Below, piece after piece: positions 56,649 to 64,000 of a stretch of DNA of 64,000 nucleotides. Every line of letters begins with the position of its first letter. Positions within the stretch are counted from its first letter, which is position 1. The notes under the pieces were generated by a model, which worked only from the letters and a program-made list of their open reading frames with translations, searched no databases and had not been told where the DNA came from. The stretch spans positions 259,770 to 323,769 of the forward strand of contig NZ_JAJTNB010000001.1 in the NCBI RefSeq assembly GCF_021300655.1, written 5' to 3'. The position numbers and the translations under genes were made by a program. This DNA is from Helicobacter kayseriensis (GTDB lineage Bacteria; Campylobacterota; Campylobacteria; Campylobacterales; Helicobacteraceae).

Positions 56649-57092
56649 ATGGAAAAATACGGACTTTTGGGACTTTTCCTCTCTACTTTTGCTTCTAGCA
56701 CAATTCTTCCAATCCCTTCAGAACTTGTCGTCGCAACCTTTGTGGCACTCAAATATAATTTGTGGCTCATTCTCTTCATCGCAAGTCTAGGAAATGTATT
56801 AGGAAGCATCACAACTTATGCACTTGGATATTTTGGAATCACAAAGCTATTGCAAAAAATGTCCAAGCATAACTCTGCTCGTGTGCGATATTTTCGCCAA
56901 AAAAGCGCACAATATGGAAGCATCTTAGCTTTCTTTTCATTTTTGCCTTTTTTGGGAGATATTTTTACACTTGCTTTGGGACTTGCAAAATACAATATTT
57001 ATAAAGCAATCTTTCTTATCGCACTTGGAAAAACCTTGCGCTATGCAGTGATCATCTTTGGAGTACAAGAAGCTTCAAAATGGTTTCTTTAA
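56649..57092 (+). CDS. YqaA/DedA-like (SNARE-associated) membrane protein
   Basis: A 147-residue membrane protein with four helices. FLSTFASSTILPIPSELVVA and LGNVLGSITTYALGYFG match the YqaA branch of the DedA superfamily, with the SFLPFLGDIFTLALG segment in the second half. DedA proteins act in lipid carrier flipping. Translation is probably coupled to alr. Its stop overlaps the opposite-strand hypothetical gene by 4 bases. Confidence 0.85.
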   Translation: MEKYGLLGLFLSTFASSTILPIPSELVVATFVALKYNLWLILFIASLGNVLGSITTYALGYFGITKLLQKMSKHNSARVRYFRQKSAQYGSILAFFSFLPFLGDIFTLALGLAKYNIYKAIFLIALGKTLRYAVIIFGVQEASKWFL

Positions 57093-57367
57093 AGCTTTTC
57101 TTGCACGATCTTCACCCATAGCTGATGAGATCTTGGGAATTCTCTTTTTTGCATCAGTTTCAAAACTTTTTTTAGCTCTTTTTGATCAAGATTCTCAAAA
57201 ACACAGCGCTCAAACCCATCTTCTTCCACGGTAAAAATCTGATTGGATAATTTATAAACCCTCACTTCTCGATCCTTCTTTAAAGGCCAAATCACAATCC
57301 CCTGCCCTACTTTTATCCTCTCTAATTGGCACAAAACATAGGGCAAGAATCTAGATGCTTCAATCAC
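57089..57367 (-). CDS. hypothetical protein at the end of the nuclease operon
   Basis: A 92-residue, basic, soluble protein that I do not recognise. It has a short beta-rich N-terminal part (IKVGQGIVIWPLKKDREVRVYKL), an acidic centre and a basic helix (QKELKKVLKLMQKREFPRSHQ). No signal peptide or metal motif. It overlaps the DUF2779 nuclease frame by 8 bases, so the two are translated together. A small partner or regulator of the nuclease is possible, but only context supports that. Confidence 0.6.
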   Translation of the reverse strand: MIEASRFLPYVLCQLERIKVGQGIVIWPLKKDREVRVYKLSNQIFTVEEDGFERCVFENLDQKELKKVLKLMQKREFPRSHQLWVKIVQEKL

Positions 57368-58838
57368 TAATCTGCCTTAGTTTTTCCAATATCTTCACCA
57401 TCGCCAAAGTATCCAATTTGCAGTATTCCAAAAGTGCTAGACGATACCGCTCTTTTGTTTTGCAATCCATTAAATGCAACTTAGGGAAGATTTCCATTGC
57501 CTCCCCTCCGTGATGAATCAAATCAAGCTGATGATAAGCCTCCTGCATCTCTGGCACTAGAGCAGGAAGAACCTTTTTGATACTATGGCTTCCCAACATT
57601 TTGGGATCATAATAAGCCTTTTGTGCAAAAGGTTTCATCAAATCCACCATATTAAAATAAATCCCCCAAAGCCTTTCACTCAAATCCCCAAATCTCCGTG
57701 CAAGTTTCTCAATCACTTGCATCTCAAAAGATTTATTATATGCCATCACCATCGCACCACTTGGAATCATCTCACATAAGTTTTGAGCCAATTCATAGCG
57801 TGGATCTTTGCCTTCTTGTGCCAAAAATTCCAAATGCTCAAATCGCCCATCTCCATAATCAATATGCAAAGAATACTGAAAGGGAATCTGTTCATATGGA
57901 GAGATTCCCTCCCATTGAGGAATAGCTTGCTGAAATGTTTCAAAATCAAGATGAAAAATTGGATAGCGCAAGCTATTTAAAAACTCTCTAATAGCACAAA
58001 GATCAATTTGTGGCTTTTGTGTCCTTTCGCACTCAATTTGAATCTTTTGCTTCCAGCTAAAAGGACTAAGATCTTTGATCTCCTCAATTTTCACAATCCC
58101 TTGATGATAAAGTCTAAATTTCTCAGACATTTTCAAATATGCAATATCAAATACACTATAGTCTGGAATCTGTCTTTGGGTTTTCCAACAATATTCATAC
58201 CCATCACATACATATGGAGAGAAACACTGCTCTCCAATCTCAATCTTTGGCTCTTGGGGAAAAGAAAGCATAAGCTTAAACTTCTTGATCAATTCTCCAA
58301 TGTGATCTAGTCTTGTTTTGATCGTTGGCATCACATTTGTGATTTTAAAAAGCCTAGAAATATCCAAACTCTCTTGATATACATAAGAAGTATCAAGATA
58401 AATAATATATGCCTCATCTAGCTCATACCCAAGTCCTCTTAAAACATAGCACTGGATTGCAATATCATCTAGATACACATCTTTGATGCGCGAAGAGCTT
58501 TTCACCTCATAAAGATAGAGCTTCCCATCTTGAATGCGTAAGATATCCACCATCACAAGCACATCTTTATAGGCAAAGGTAGCCTCATAGATCACTTCCT
58601 CACCTTGATTGATCCACTCTTGAGTTTGCAGAATCTTTGTTTGAAAATCTTCTCCCTCAGCCGCAATCTCACGCCCATTTGGGATAAGAGAGCGAGCAAG
58701 CTTTCCTACCTCATCACCTGTTTGAAAAACTTGCATTGCTTGCTGATCACACTCTTGCAATACCTCGGGGTGATATTTCTTGAGCCACAAAGATTTGGGG
58801 CAATTAATCCCTCTTATACACAGTGATTTAGAAAGCAA
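57360..58838 (-). CDS. DUF2779 nuclease: Cas4/RecB-like domain plus DEDD exonuclease-like domain
   Basis: A 492-residue protein from the TTG at 58838 (AAAGGA upstream); a TTG at 58868 would add ten residues and is less likely. Numbering is from 58838. The first half is a PD-(D/E)xK nuclease of the Cas4/RecB type: Asp98 in VMVDIL, then Glu111 and Lys113 in YLYEVKSSS. Four cysteines for a 4Fe-4S cluster are Cys13 (GINCPKSLW) and Cys205, Cys211, Cys217 (QCFSPYVCDGYEYCW). The second half is RNase H-like with a DEDD-type set: Asp298/Glu300 in FHLDFETF, Asp399 in NMVDL, and Asp476 in YCKLDTLAM. No cas genes are nearby. The substrate and role are unknown. Confidence 0.8.
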   Translation of the reverse strand: MLSKSLCIRGINCPKSLWLKKYHPEVLQECDQQAMQVFQTGDEVGKLARSLIPNGREIAAEGEDFQTKILQTQEWINQGEEVIYEATFAYKDVLVMVDILRIQDGKLYLYEVKSSSRIKDVYLDDIAIQCYVLRGLGYELDEAYIIYLDTSYVYQESLDISRLFKITNVMPTIKTRLDHIGELIKKFKLMLSFPQEPKIEIGEQCFSPYVCDGYEYCWKTQRQIPDYSVFDIAYLKMSEKFRLYHQGIVKIEEIKDLSPFSWKQKIQIECERTQKPQIDLCAIREFLNSLRYPIFHLDFETFQQAIPQWEGISPYEQIPFQYSLHIDYGDGRFEHLEFLAQEGKDPRYELAQNLCEMIPSGAMVMAYNKSFEMQVIEKLARRFGDLSERLWGIYFNMVDLMKPFAQKAYYDPKMLGSHSIKKVLPALVPEMQEAYHQLDLIHHGGEAMEIFPKLHLMDCKTKERYRLALLEYCKLDTLAMVKILEKLRQISD

Positions 58839-58864
58839 AATTTTTCCTTTTATTGAGATTGAGA

Positions 58865-59413
58865 TCAACTATTTTTTAGAATCTTTTTCCACTCTTGCAA
58901 TCTTTTTTGACCGGCAAATGTTTGATTGATAGGGCTTGGACTAGGCAAATACTCTGCCTTCAATCCAAAATAACGCCAAAGCAAATCTTGAACCTTTCTA
59001 GAAGTCGCACAGATTTTTATTTGAGGATTTTTCTCCAGCAAAGATTGGATGAATTTTTGTGAGTATTGATGATTTTTCCCTTGCTTAAACAAAGCTTGAT
59101 CAGTTGAATACCACCCATCTCCCTCATAGCTCTCAACCAAATCATAAAGCGCAATTTTTTGACTATCAAGCCAACCAATCTTTTCTTCTACAGTCTGCAA
59201 AAGCGATAGATCTTGATCAAAAACCTCTCCCAGCAACCTCCAAAATGCATTTTTTGGATTGCCATAGAAAAATCCATTTTTTCTAGAAGCTTGAGAGGGA
59301 AAACTCCCCAAAAGCAAAAATCGATATGCACAAGCCCGATTCAAATAATGCTCTTTGATCATCGCAAAAGGATGCTTGAAGCATTGCAATACTCCTTTTT
59401 CTACTCCTTGCAC
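58865..59413 (-). CDS. DNA-deoxyinosine (hypoxanthine) glycosylase family protein
   Basis: A 182-residue member of the uracil-DNA glycosylase superfamily. LLGSFPSQASRKNGFFYGNPKNAFWRLL (in two parts: LLGSFPSQASRKNG and FFYGNPKNAFWRLL) is the signature of the HDG branch, which removes hypoxanthine or uracil from DNA, and SPSPINQTF near residue 160 is the second active-site loop. Start GTG at 59413 with AAGGGGG just upstream; the HPF segment before residue 18 fits the family and supports this start. It overlaps the rhodanese gene by 13 bases. Confidence 0.82.
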   Translation of the reverse strand: MQGVEKGVLQCFKHPFAMIKEHYLNRACAYRFLLLGSFPSQASRKNGFFYGNPKNAFWRLLGEVFDQDLSLLQTVEEKIGWLDSQKIALYDLVESYEGDGWYSTDQALFKQGKNHQYSQKFIQSLLEKNPQIKICATSRKVQDLLWRYFGLKAEYLPSPSPINQTFAGQKRLQEWKKILKNS

Positions 59414-60777
59414 GAAGCCCCCTTTTTGAAAACCTTCCCATAATCATTTTTAGAACTAGGCTTTTGAGCCCCCTTAGGTGCTCCAATCTGCACAGGCAGA
59501 GAATGATCCATCTGCCACGCATTCCACCCACCATCATAAACCTTTGCATGCTTCCATCCTGCCATTTGCGTCAAAAACCACGCCACTCCTGCCCTCCATC
59601 CAGTCCCACAATAAAACGCCACTTCATCATCTGGACCAATTCCTTGGGATTGCCACAAAGCAAAGATCTCAAGCGGATTTCGAAGTGTCCCATCAGGATC
59701 ATAATAATCTGCCATATTTGTCGAATCACTTCCTCCAAATCCCCAAATTGCCCCTACAGGCTCTCCTGCACGCGGAATATAACTATAGCCACTCACTTTC
59801 CCAATATACTCATCCCACGCACGCGTACTCACAAGCTTCAAACCCTCTTTTTGCGCTTTGATGACATCTTGGGGCATCCACAAGACAAATTCCTCCCTCT
59901 CAAGACTTTGATCTCCAAAATCATTCTCAGCCTTTGGATAGCGAGGTATTGCCTCCACTCCAAATCCCGCATCCATCCAAGTCTCAAGATTGCCATTCAT
60001 CACATAGACATTTTTAACACCTGCCCATTTGAGGGCAAAAAATACACGATAAGCAGCAAGTTGGTTATTGGAATAAAGAATAATATTTTTCGTGCTTGTA
60101 ATGCCCTGTTTGAGAAGATTTTTTCTTATGACTTGAAGATCAAGGAGATTCCAAAGCGGAGCACTCTCAATCCAATCTGTATTGAAATGATAAGCCCCTG
60201 CAATATGCTGGCGATAGTCTTTGGCTTCTTTGAGCTCTCCCCAAGATACTTCAAAAATCATTGCCTCTCCCCCACTATACCCCTCAGGATTCTTCCCCTT
60301 AAGCACCTCATTGACCCACCAAGGCGAAACACTATAAACATAATAAGGAAATGATTCCAAAGGATAAGTTGCATTGACATATTCCATCCAATGAGGATAG
60401 ATGGCTACTTGATACCCCCTAGATGCAAACTCTGCGCTCACACGCTCCAAATGATCCAAATCACTATCATAAAAAATCAATTTCTTATCTTTTGCGATTC
60501 CTTTTTGGGTGGCAAAACTTTCTAGGTATCGGATATCTAGATAATCTAGCCAAGAGGCACTAAATTGAATCGCTCCCTTGATATGACCTCCACGCTTTGC
60601 TCCCTTTTCTTTAAATCCATTATAAAAACTATCCTCACGCGTATCAATAAGCAGAGTTTGAGGATGATTTAAGGCTTCAAGAAACTCTTGAGTATCTAGT
60701 CTTTGAATCTGATTAGTTTCTAAGCACCCTACAAACCAAATGCCCACAAATAGGACAAAACAAATCTTTTTGATCAT
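59401..60777 (-). CDS. lipoprotein with three rhodanese domains
   Basis: A 458-residue exported sulfurtransferase-like protein. Signal sequence with lipobox (IWFVGC, Cys18). Three rhodanese folds can be traced, at about 30-145, 165-290 and 300-430. The active-site position is YDSDLDH in the first and LYSNNQLAAYR in the second, so both lack the cysteine; only the third has it (FYCGTGWRA, Cys390). It probably takes sulfane sulfur in the periplasm and may work with the YeeE/YedE transporter encoded just before it (4-base overlap). Activity is inferred from domain content. Confidence 0.85.
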   Translation of the reverse strand: MIKKICFVLFVGIWFVGCLETNQIQRLDTQEFLEALNHPQTLLIDTREDSFYNGFKEKGAKRGGHIKGAIQFSASWLDYLDIRYLESFATQKGIAKDKKLIFYDSDLDHLERVSAEFASRGYQVAIYPHWMEYVNATYPLESFPYYVYSVSPWWVNEVLKGKNPEGYSGGEAMIFEVSWGELKEAKDYRQHIAGAYHFNTDWIESAPLWNLLDLQVIRKNLLKQGITSTKNIILYSNNQLAAYRVFFALKWAGVKNVYVMNGNLETWMDAGFGVEAIPRYPKAENDFGDQSLEREEFVLWMPQDVIKAQKEGLKLVSTRAWDEYIGKVSGYSYIPRAGEPVGAIWGFGGSDSTNMADYYDPDGTLRNPLEIFALWQSQGIGPDDEVAFYCGTGWRAGVAWFLTQMAGWKHAKVYDGGWNAWQMDHSLPVQIGAPKGAQKPSSKNDYGKVFKKGASCKE

Positions 60778-61742
60778 CTTAGCTCACAAGTTTGATTCTT
60801 AAAAAATCTTGATGCCAATGCACATCCGACTATCATCGCAAACATCGCAATCCAACCTTGAGAAGAAAAATATGCCGTCGCTACAAGAGCATTTGTCGCC
60901 GTGCAACCCCCAGCCCAATATGCTCCAACACCCATCAAAACTCCCCCTCCAAGTGCTCTAAGCAATGCTCTCCCATCTAGCACTTTCCATCTAAACTCAC
61001 CCCTGAACTTTGCCATACAAAAAGCTCCTATCACAATCCCCACCACAAAGCAACTCCCCCAATTCACATAGCGTTGCTGACCTGTTAGAAGATACAAAAA
61101 CGCATGCACGCTTGGCACAGAAACCCCAAAACCATAATCACGCCCACTCGCTGAACTCAACACCCACGCAACAATCCCCAAAATCCCAAGGAAAAATGCA
61201 CTAATCCATAATCTCTGATCGCTAGCCTTATATTTCCAAGAAGCAAGAAAAAGCACAAAACTCAAACACACCATACCCCCTACAAACCACCAAGGTGAGA
61301 GATGAAGAGTGAGATAAAGATTATCTACAGGCAGAGGATCTTCAAGCAGTGAAGAAAGATAGGGTTTCAAAAGCCCACTTTGAGCACAACTCAGAGTCAC
61401 CACAAAGGCAAAAAGCATCACCAAGCCAGCAATCGCACCCTCACCAAATCGAAACCAGCCTCCATTGACACACAATCCTGCAACACCCATCCCCACACCA
61501 AAAACCAATCCCCCCAAAAGCGTAGCAAGCAAAGGAAGTGGGGTTGAGGGGATTTTCAATATCTCCAAAGATTGAAGAGTAAAAATCCCCAAAGACTGAA
61601 TCGTGATAGCCAAAAAGAGTGCAAAAAGAAAACTTGGATTCCTTTTCCAAACCGCATCACGAAATCCCGAAACAAAACAAAACTGCCCCCATTGCACCAA
61701 CGCCCCAAAAATCATCCCCACCAACAAACCACTGATAATCAC
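60774..61742 (-). CDS. YeeE/YedE-family thiosulfate (sulfur) transporter
   Basis: A 322-residue membrane protein with about nine helices. Cys22 (QFCFVSGFRDA), Cys91 (VAGLCVNGGWFRFG) and Cys280 (WAGGCTATNA) stand at the positions of the three pore cysteines that relay thiosulfate in characterised YeeE proteins. The duplicated helix-loop pattern of the family is visible. Start GTG at 61742 with AAAGGA. Beginning of the overlapping group that leads to the rhodanese lipoprotein. Confidence 0.88.
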   Translation of the reverse strand: MIISGLLVGMIFGALVQWGQFCFVSGFRDAVWKRNPSFLFALFLAITIQSLGIFTLQSLEILKIPSTPLPLLATLLGGLVFGVGMGVAGLCVNGGWFRFGEGAIAGLVMLFAFVVTLSCAQSGLLKPYLSSLLEDPLPVDNLYLTLHLSPWWFVGGMVCLSFVLFLASWKYKASDQRLWISAFFLGILGIVAWVLSSASGRDYGFGVSVPSVHAFLYLLTGQQRYVNWGSCFVVGIVIGAFCMAKFRGEFRWKVLDGRALLRALGGGVLMGVGAYWAGGCTATNALVATAYFSSQGWIAMFAMIVGCALASRFFKNQTCELR

Positions 61743-61786: not shown

Positions 61787-62446
61787 CTAAATCCTTTCAA
61801 GAAATTGCCTTTTTCTCTCTTTCCAATCAGGCATATACAAAGATACAAAACGATAAAAATCTTGATTGTGATAGGGGTATTTCAGATGTGCTAATTCGTG
61901 CAAGACAACATACTCAATCCCTCTTTTGTCCTTTTTGATAAGCTCAAGATTGAGATTGATTGAGGCTCTTTTAGGATTGCAACTCCCCCATCTTGTCGTC
62001 ATCGTCCTGATTCTCAAAGTCTTCACTTCAAACCCCAAAAGAGTCGCATAAAAATCTAGCAATGCACCAAAGCACTCTTTGGCCCTGTCTTGATACCATC
62101 GCTTGATCAGCCTCTGTTTGTGCAAAAAATCATGCTCTTTTTTTGTCAAAAGCTCGACAAATCCGCCATTGATCCTTACCTCTTCTTGCGTGCTTGGAAT
62201 CACCTTGAGACGATAGCGTTTGCCTAGATATTCAAAATCTTCTCCACTAACAAACTCTTGAGGGGCTTTGGGCTGAAGTGCTTGGAATCTCTGCAGTGCA
62301 TTTTCAATCCATTTCTTGCGTTTTTGCAAAATATGATCGATCTCTTGAGTGCTCGCACACCTTGGCACGCTCAAAGTTACTTCAAGGGAAGGTTTGACTT
62401 TGAGGATAAAGTGCTTGATGTCTTTATAGATGATCTTAGCTTGCAT
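61787..62446 (-). CDS. YgjP-like zinc metallopeptidase (M48/DUF45)
   Basis: A 219-residue soluble protein. The zinc motif HELAH (183-187) follows RWGSCNPKRASINLNLEL, a combination that defines the YgjP/WLM-like DUF45 family. The N-terminus is a small beta domain ending around residue 70. Function unproven; family members often sit beside type I restriction genes, and here it overlaps the hsdR stop codon by 11 bases. Confidence 0.85.
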   Translation of the reverse strand: MQAKIIYKDIKHFILKVKPSLEVTLSVPRCASTQEIDHILQKRKKWIENALQRFQALQPKAPQEFVSGEDFEYLGKRYRLKVIPSTQEEVRINGGFVELLTKKEHDFLHKQRLIKRWYQDRAKECFGALLDFYATLLGFEVKTLRIRTMTTRWGSCNPKRASINLNLELIKKDKRGIEYVVLHELAHLKYPYHNQDFYRFVSLYMPDWKERKRQFLERI

Positions 62447-64000
62447 AGTTCTTTTGCCCTATTTCTCGCACATAAATGATAAATTCCTCAATCTCTTGAG
62501 ATGGGATAGAAATATGATATTCATACAATAGATCATCAATTTTTTGTTCAATTTGTTTAATCACCTCTATATTGTGCTCCCAATCAGGTTTTTGAGATTT
62601 TTGGACAAACACCAAATCAAGCTCAAGAATAAACTCAACTAGCTTTTCTTCATCTTCAAATTTTGATTTGAGATTATCATAAAAAGCCTTTTGGGCTAGC
62701 TTCACCAAGGCTTTTGGATAGCTTTGCTCATCATTTCTACTATATCCTTTGAGTTCTTCATAGATTTGCTTAGCATCAATGAGCTTTTGTGCCTCATCGA
62801 TTCTGCCCTGCCTATAGTCCTCAAGCACTTTTTGGATTCTCTTGCTTAGCTCATCATAGAAAAAGGGGTTTTTCTCTCTTTCTTGGGTGATGACTTGGCT
62901 TGTAGCACTCAGTATCCTATCTGCCCTTGCATTATCTGTGCCTATCTGCCCCTCATCTTTCAAAAATCTCTCATCAAAGACCCCTACAAGCTCTACCAAA
63001 ACCTCAGCTTCATTGGCTCCAATATAGCGATCGATCAACTCTTGCATTTGTTTTTCATAGGATTTGAAATCGACCTTTTCGTGATAGCGAATCTGAACAT
63101 TGCGTTTGAGCTCTACATAAAATTTCAAAGCTTTTTTGAAAGAATCAATCTCTTTAGGAGTCAAGTCTTTTTGATACCCCTCTCCAGAGAAGAGGAGCTT
63201 TAGGCTCTTGGAAAACTCCAAAAGAAGCGAATAAAACTCCTCCCTCTTGCTCCTATCCTCTAAAAATACCTCATACTCCTCTATATCATCTCCAAGCCCA
63301 GAAAAAAACTCTCTCAATGCTTGATACTTCTCTTTGACTTCCAAAGACTGCTTTTGAAGACTTATGACTGCTTGAGCGATATCTCCCTCCTCATATCCTG
63401 CCAAAACCTCATAGCTATTGAGTGCCTCACTCAAATCTTCAAGCAATCCTCGATAATCCACGATCAATCCATAATCCTTGCCCTCAAAGAGGCGATTGGC
63501 TCGTGCGATCGCTTGAAGGAGATTATGCTCTTTGAGGGGTTTGTCTATATACAAGCACGCCACATTTGGCGCATCAAACCCTGTAAGAAGCTTATCTACA
63601 ACGATAAGAAGCTCTATCTCATCACCATTGACAAACTCATCTTGAATGTATTGCATATAAGCCTCTTCGCTTGAGTATTTCTTCATCAACCCTTCCCAAG
63701 CTTTTCTTACTTCATCTTGATTGCCCTCATCAACATCTTCATATCCCTCTCGCATATCAGGAGCAGAGATGACAAAAGCACTTCTTAGCCAATCTTTGCT
63801 TTCAAAGATTTGATGATATTTGATAGCCTCATATTTGGAGCTTGTCGCAAGCATAGCTTTGAAGGGGCGAACATTCTTGTAATGATTGAAAATATCCCAC
63901 GCTACCCACTCCAACCGCTCAAGGTTTGGAGCGATTTGACGGAATTGGGTGAATTTGGCTTTGAGATCGGCTTTTTGCTCATCGCTTAGGTCTCTTGAGA
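62436..64000 (-). CDS. hsdR: type I restriction endonuclease subunit R (HsdR), C-terminal part
   Basis: The frame is open to the window edge, so only the C-terminal 520 or so residues are seen and the N-terminal nuclease and first helicase motifs are missing. Recognisable are the helicase segments FKAMLATSSKYEA, VDKLLTGFDAPNVACLYIDKPL and LLQAIARANRLFEGK (motifs V-VI), then GLIVDYRGLLEDLSEALNSY, followed by the helical HsdM-contacting region. HsdR translocates and cuts unmodified DNA. hsdM and hsdS must lie beyond 64000. The codon taken as a start at 63914 is internal. Confidence 0.93.
   Translation of the reverse strand, partial: SRDLSDEQKADLKAKFTQFRQIAPNLERLEWVAWDIFNHYKNVRPFKAMLATSSKYEAIKYHQIFESKDWLRSAFVISAPDMREGYEDVDEGNQDEVRKAWEGLMKKYSSEEAYMQYIQDEFVNGDEIELLIVVDKLLTGFDAPNVACLYIDKPLKEHNLLQAIARANRLFEGKDYGLIVDYRGLLEDLSEALNSYEVLAGYEEGDIAQAVISLQKQSLEVKEKYQALREFFSGLGDDIEEYEVFLEDRSKREEFYSLLLEFSKSLKLLFSGEGYQKDLTPKEIDSFKKALKFYVELKRNVQIRYHEKVDFKSYEKQMQELIDRYIGANEAEVLVELVGVFDERFLKDEGQIGTDNARADRILSATSQVITQEREKNPFFYDELSKRIQKVLEDYRQGRIDEAQKLIDAKQIYEELKGYSRNDEQSYPKALVKLAQKAFYDNLKSKFEDEEKLVEFILELDLVFVQKSQKPDWEHNIEVIKQIEQKIDDLLYEYHISIPSQEIEEFIIYVREIGQKNYAS

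Follow-up and report, generated by a model that had tools for sequence, protein, structure and literature searches.

A DUF2779 protein with Cas4-like and DEDD-type nuclease domains in a Helicobacter kayseriensis defence island: a candidate accessory DNA-end nuclease

Described relatives of DUF2779

DUF2779 has been placed computationally among the RNase H-like 3'-5' exonucleases as family F.17 (Majorek et al. 2014; PMC3985635), and the DUF83 PD-(D/E)XK domain of these proteins was noted in the same work. The section of that paper describing F.17 gives the two-domain architecture and the conserved residues that we find in the protein analysed here, a member of the family, and gives no function, partner or genomic context. 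TM0106/COG2251 RecB-like nucleases with RNase_H_2, treated in the same source, also combine DUF83-type and RNase H-like domains; COG2251 proteins often have AAA domains, which our protein lacks, and it had no NCBIfam match to TIGR03491 (TM0106 RecB-like nuclease) at E values up to 1. The Fe-S nucleases Cas4 and solo-Cas4 (PMC5704561) have in common with the DUF2779 N-terminal domain the PD-(D/E)XK motifs and four cysteines, and they provide its best structural matches. Solo-Cas4 proteins likewise occur without Cas1/Cas2 or a CRISPR association.

Two further systems are parallel in genomic behaviour. Acquisition of one nuclease unit by unrelated defence systems has been shown experimentally for nuclease-protease pairs, which recur in Hachiman, AVAST, Lamassu and DRT (PMC12799240). 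The analogy is that of a single recurring nuclease unit; that unit consists of an MBL-fold pro-nuclease and its protease activator, and we claim no homology to DUF2779. Defence hotspots of P. aeruginosa and E. coli (PMC10250203, PMC10121019) likewise hold interchangeable defence systems between conserved flanks. In the main-text passages on DUF2779 that we searched, we found no link to defence, and an earlier listing as a defence candidate is possible; nor did we find an activity or phage assay of any DUF2779 member.

Fold and active sites of the window protein

We analysed a 64,000-nucleotide stretch of the H. kayseriensis genome (hereafter, the window), in which an initial annotation had proposed a two-nuclease DUF2779 protein at 57360-58838 on the reverse strand. 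Pfam, the open reading frame listing, homologue N-termini and residue conservation bear out this call. The longest open frame at the locus (57360-58868, 502 codons) was extended mechanically; we prefer the TTG start at 58838, since it is preceded by AAAGGA and yields a 492-residue protein beginning with MLSKS, the N-terminus of nearly all DUF2779 homologues in the alignment. The protein matched Pfam DUF2779 (PF11074) with 146.7 bits against a gathering cut-off of 23.3 (E=5e-43), and RNase_H_2 with 21.9 bits, slightly below the cut-off. By sequence, the gene is thus a conserved family member, with a match far beyond chance. Resemblance to the Mollicutes UU173 family (NF045869) was partial, at 55.1 bits against a cut-off of 225, and was confined to the C-terminal half.

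The N-terminal Cas4/RecB-type PD-(D/E)XK domain spans residues ~1-225 (58164-58838, reverse strand) and contains D98, E111-x-K113 and Q129, together with the putative cluster cysteines C13, C205, C211 and C217. The C-terminal RNase H-like domain, a DEDD-type exonuclease domain, spans residues ~290-492 (57363-57971, reverse strand), and the spacing of its residues suggests the motifs D298-x-E300, N368-x3-E372, D399 and Y472-x3-D476, with Glu replacing the usual Asp in motif II. We aligned 92 DUF2779 proteins in the 492-residue numbering, most of them ~40% identical to the query and those from viral contigs ~30%. D98, E111, K113 and Q129 were invariant, as were D298, E300, E372, D399, Y472 and D476, and each of the four cysteines was at least 90% conserved. 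Judged by this conservation, both nuclease active sites appear intact, as the initial annotation had supposed from a single sequence. The AlphaFold model of the protein had a mean pLDDT of 97.3, and its top fold matches in the PDB were Cas4 from the type I-C and I-G Cas4-Cas1-Cas2 complexes, followed by Pyrobaculum Cas4, MGME1, Dna2 and RecE.

Even with this Cas4-like fold, the protein is not a plain Cas4, as the initial annotation had also concluded. The PADLOC Cas4 profile covered residues 22-229 (E=5e-8), whereas the family models were missed: PF01930 gave 13.4 bits against 22.7, and TIGR00372 gave 14.2 against 65. Unlike Cas4 and solo-Cas4, the protein is fused to a DEDD domain and occurs in a genome without CRISPR genes; the absence of a CRISPR locus noted earlier for the window extends to the whole genome, in which we found no Cas1 and no Pfam match to Cas2.

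The C-terminal domain also bears on the substrate. Many exoribonucleases belong to the DEDD superfamily, according to the part of the 2014 classification that treats it (PMC3985635), and DUF2779 could on this ground be a nuclease of RNA or RNA-DNA hybrids. We regard this as very improbable, since its DEDD domain is fused to a Cas4-type domain and its genes are linked to SbcCD and to DNA-targeting systems. Characterised relatives of the Cas4-type domain cut DNA.

The defence island of the window

In the window, DUF2779 adjoins a VTT-alr-cytochrome-recR-dnaJ block, and it occupies the same site in a congener (G001). It belongs to one co-directional array that continues past the window end and runs in the order hsdM, Abi_2, hsdS, AAA_21 ATPase, hsdR, YgjP, Sulf_transp, three-rhodanese protein, UDG-family glycosylase, DUF2779 and a 92-residue gene, all on the reverse strand. 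The hsdR gene of this type I restriction-modification (R-M) system lies at 62436-64000 and runs on to the equivalent of 65462 beyond the window, where the AAA_21 ATPase, hsdS, Abi_2 and hsdM genes follow on the same strand. The gene for a YgjP-like metallopeptidase (61787-62446) comes after hsdR here and in a congener. Genes for a Sulf_transp membrane protein (60774-61742) and a three-rhodanese-domain protein (59401-60777) are inserted in the array between YgjP and the glycosylase. In another congener (G005), DUF2779 is found at the opposite end of a similar island, 20 nt before hsdM. Since the array contains a type I R-M system and Abi_2, and since hsdM directly adjoins DUF2779 in G005, we consider the window gene a defence-island gene. 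No RNA families were found near it and no notable repeats at it.

A gene for 92 residues (57089-57367, reverse strand) overlaps the DUF2779 stop and matches the PADLOC profile PDLC01568 'Cas2' (E=3.5e-21). We rejected it as a Cas2 partner: it has no Pfam Cas2 match, and the PDB search found no Cas2. Its single-sequence model (pLDDT 47) was too poor to judge. Two homologues, one directly after mnmG (G002) and one in G295, are not beside DUF2779 and have KKDR and EFPRSxQxW in common with it. The PADLOC profile is probably mislabelled.

Upstream of DUF2779, at a distance of 26 nt, lies a UDG-superfamily gene (58865-59413, reverse strand) that resembles hypoxanthine-DNA glycosylases, with 66.7 bits against the TIGR04274 cut-off of 80, so that its subfamily is not established. 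This neighbour fits the reading that DUF2779 is a passenger or an ordinary repair nuclease merely co-resident in islands, acting in the window in excision repair with the glycosylase. A phenotype outside a phage setting fits it as well: in Mycoplasma bovis, a single transposon insertion in the DUF2779 gene, as described in the relevant part of PMC7373297, lowered growth with host cells, which hints at other roles. We nonetheless rejected a DUF2779-glycosylase pair, as the pairing did not recur in the other loci searched, and the absence of DUF2779 from 73% of Campylobacterales, unlike core repair genes, together with its frequent tight overlap with defence genes, makes the passenger or repair reading unlikely.

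DUF2779 neighbourhoods and the SbcDC frame

Of the 299 Campylobacterales genomes surveyed, 81 encode DUF2779, and these belong to 42 of 81 genera; in the window genus, four of six genomes have it. Genomes of many phyla carry it: an alignment-based query against genome contigs returned 80 loci, and a single-sequence query of the same contigs returned none. Plasmid records with DUF2779 numbered 30, from Helicobacter and Arcobacter to Sphingobium, Planktothrix and Salinibacter, and 17 IMG/VR viral contigs encoded it; no full-length copy was found in GenBank phages. Seven Helicobacter heilmannii prophage records (within BK070121-BK070128) contained C-terminal remnants of 77 residues. The DUF2779 tree required 22 label changes for 12 phyla (minimum 11), and in at least four loci (L064, L066, L081 and L091) the gene was broken into several frames. 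Such patchy, often plasmid-borne and sometimes broken occurrence is typical of a gene that is mobile and dispensable.

The neighbourhood survey that the initial annotation had proposed revealed recurrent contact with unrelated defence systems. Upstream neighbours were co-directional in 133 of 167 cases, with 84 within 30 nt and 39 overlapping, the gene calls in the fetched loci being mechanical. After de-duplication, direct neighbours matched Lamassu LmuB, PARIS AriA, Hachiman HamB, GmrSD, IetA, Mokosh MkoA/MkoC, GajB, PDDEXK_4 (PDC-S26), a type I methylase and WYL proteins; PADLOC candidate (PDC) families are themselves predictions. Sets of 85 and 80 neighbours matched 369 and 264 PADLOC families, respectively, compared with 37, mainly generic ATPases, for 51 ordinary window genes; the contrast is a rough one only, since matched families rather than members were counted. 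Defence genes of many unrelated kinds directly adjoin DUF2779 in an operon-like manner.

Several arrangements recurred among these loci. PDDEXK_4 nucleases (PDC-S26) adjoin DUF2779 on either side (L100, L102, L044, L046 and others), possibly as a two-nuclease pair. Rhodoferax and Diaphorobacter plasmids (L110 and L111) carry a three-gene unit of a double-AAA ATPase, DUF2779 and WYL. On two small Helicobacter plasmids (L043 and L099; 16.6 and 24.9 kb), a gene for an 820-residue AAA ATPase immediately precedes DUF2779, and Fic and death-on-curing genes are nearby.

WYL genes peaked within 500 nt of DUF2779, in Campylobacterota and other phyla alike. Such a concentration would be expected if DUF2779 were a self-contained abortive or toxic nuclease, which WYL regulators keep silent until infection sets it free, and the patchy, decaying and, in at least four loci, split state of the gene is consistent with toxicity. 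Many non-toxic defence genes are also accompanied by WYL regulators, though, no conserved antitoxin-like neighbour was seen, and co-expression with differing defence genes looks accessory; we therefore consider a toxic nuclease quite improbable.

In Campylobacterales, the gene order SbcD-SbcC-[X]-DUF2779-(dGTPase or WYL) recurs, where X is a variable cassette. SbcD copies of this type lay within 14 kb of DUF2779 in 19 of 51 cases, for which a rough binomial estimate, overstating independence, gives a chance probability far below 1e-10. DUF2779 was present in 24 of 48 genomes with this SbcD versus 57 of 251 others (Fisher p=3e-4); as the linkage counts include related genomes of one order, these p-values are only indicative. 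Across five loci (L068, L069, L070, L072 and L075), SbcD, SbcC and DUF2779 were 91-96% identical and X was unrelated: PADLOC assigned it to ppl (L068), KAP/QatA-like (L069), OLD (L072) and Hachiman (L075). In L070, X is a Gabija-like remnant, made up of fragments that fall into the same clusters as GajA and GajB from L087; the pair in L087 is complete (PADLOC; GajA, 1e-187; GajB, 2.5e-241). In a second group of loci, most of them plasmid-borne in Aliarcobacter, X is an OLD-like gene, an LmuB-cluster gene, PDC-S06, an AAA protein or a Qat system, the last as annotated by NCBI. Conservation extends up to the SbcC stop and resumes at the first codon of DUF2779; the sequences in between are unrelated, and no repeats or att-like borders were seen at these swap points. 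In one locus (L047), there is no cassette, and 44 nt separate SbcC from DUF2779. Unlike the flanks of the P. aeruginosa and E. coli hotspots, those of this frame are DNA-processing nucleases themselves, co-directional and operon-like with the cassette. On one Aliarcobacter cryaerophilus plasmid (pCNAC48, L118), the macrolide resistance genes ere(B), msr(D) and mef(A) adjoin the DUF2779 defence locus, occupying the position of the dGTPase end in sister plasmids.

Linkage to SbcCD was observed almost exclusively in Campylobacterota; in other phyla, defence genes mostly abut DUF2779 without SbcCD. Within Campylobacterales, SbcDC sites without a linked DUF2779 (L216-L235) also receive ppl, OLD and dGTPase genes downstream of SbcC. 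Since such sites may carry cassettes, DUF2779 is dispensable there, frequent but not obligatory, and in this order SbcC is in its own right the marker of a site where defence genes insert. No SbcD of the type searched was found in the window genome, so the window locus itself does not display the frame.

Exact flanking of the swapped segment by SbcC and DUF2779, with the same divergence, would also be expected if DUF2779 and SbcCD formed a recombination or exchange machine that trims incoming DNA ends and helps to insert or replace the cassettes between them, hotspot tools rather than effectors; the match of the N-terminal fold to the recombination nuclease RecE points the same way. This seems unlikely to us: most DUF2779 loci of other phyla have defence genes adjoining DUF2779 but no SbcCD, the swap points lack repeats and att-like borders, and homologous recombination between the conserved genes accounts for the swap without such a machine.

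Together, these results make it about an even call, in our judgement, that DUF2779 is an accessory DNA-end nuclease common to defence systems. Its PD-(D/E)XK domain, a putative Fe-S domain like those of Cas4, Dna2 and AddB, would work on single-stranded DNA ends, with a second, DEDD-type 3'-5' exonuclease activity in the same chain. DUF2779 would thereby process the DNA ends that its partner systems generate, acting after the sensor or restriction system, whichever it is, that fills the neighbouring slot. SbcCD, a Mre11-Rad50-type opener of blocked ends or hairpins, would be a frequent partner; for the H. kayseriensis protein, the type I R-M system encoded in its own array would be the likely one. 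The analysis establishes the two domains, their conservation, the genomic linkage and the exchange of cassettes; we infer DNA as the substrate, the cleavage polarity, the cooperation with SbcCD and any role against phages or plasmids. Against the accessory-nuclease reading stand the roughly half of SbcD genomes without DUF2779 and the window genome without this SbcD; moreover, hitch-hiking in defence islands is no proof of a defence function. More tentatively, it is possible that SbcCD and DUF2779, often with a dGTPase or WYL regulator, form a shared chassis that destroys DNA ends and takes up different defence systems as exchangeable sensors, DUF2779 being the common effector of these unrelated systems.

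Among the roles first thought conceivable for an end-processing enzyme, defence is thus favoured by the gene neighbourhoods, and no support was found for uptake or housekeeping repair. The promise of undescribed biology holds for function and falls away for architecture: the two-domain arrangement has been known since 2014, and the genomic context is the new part. A widespread nuclease of unassigned role thereby gains a testable one, together with a definite system in which to study it experimentally. Should Gabija, Hachiman, OLD, Qat and ppl cassettes all act through SbcCD-DUF2779 as a downstream module in common, host-type break-processing machinery would be built into modular bacterial immunity. 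Such dependence could also account for the poor performance of some defence systems after transfer without the genes beside them. Even if merely accessory, DUF2779 and the 3' end of SbcC would be useful markers for new defence cassettes.
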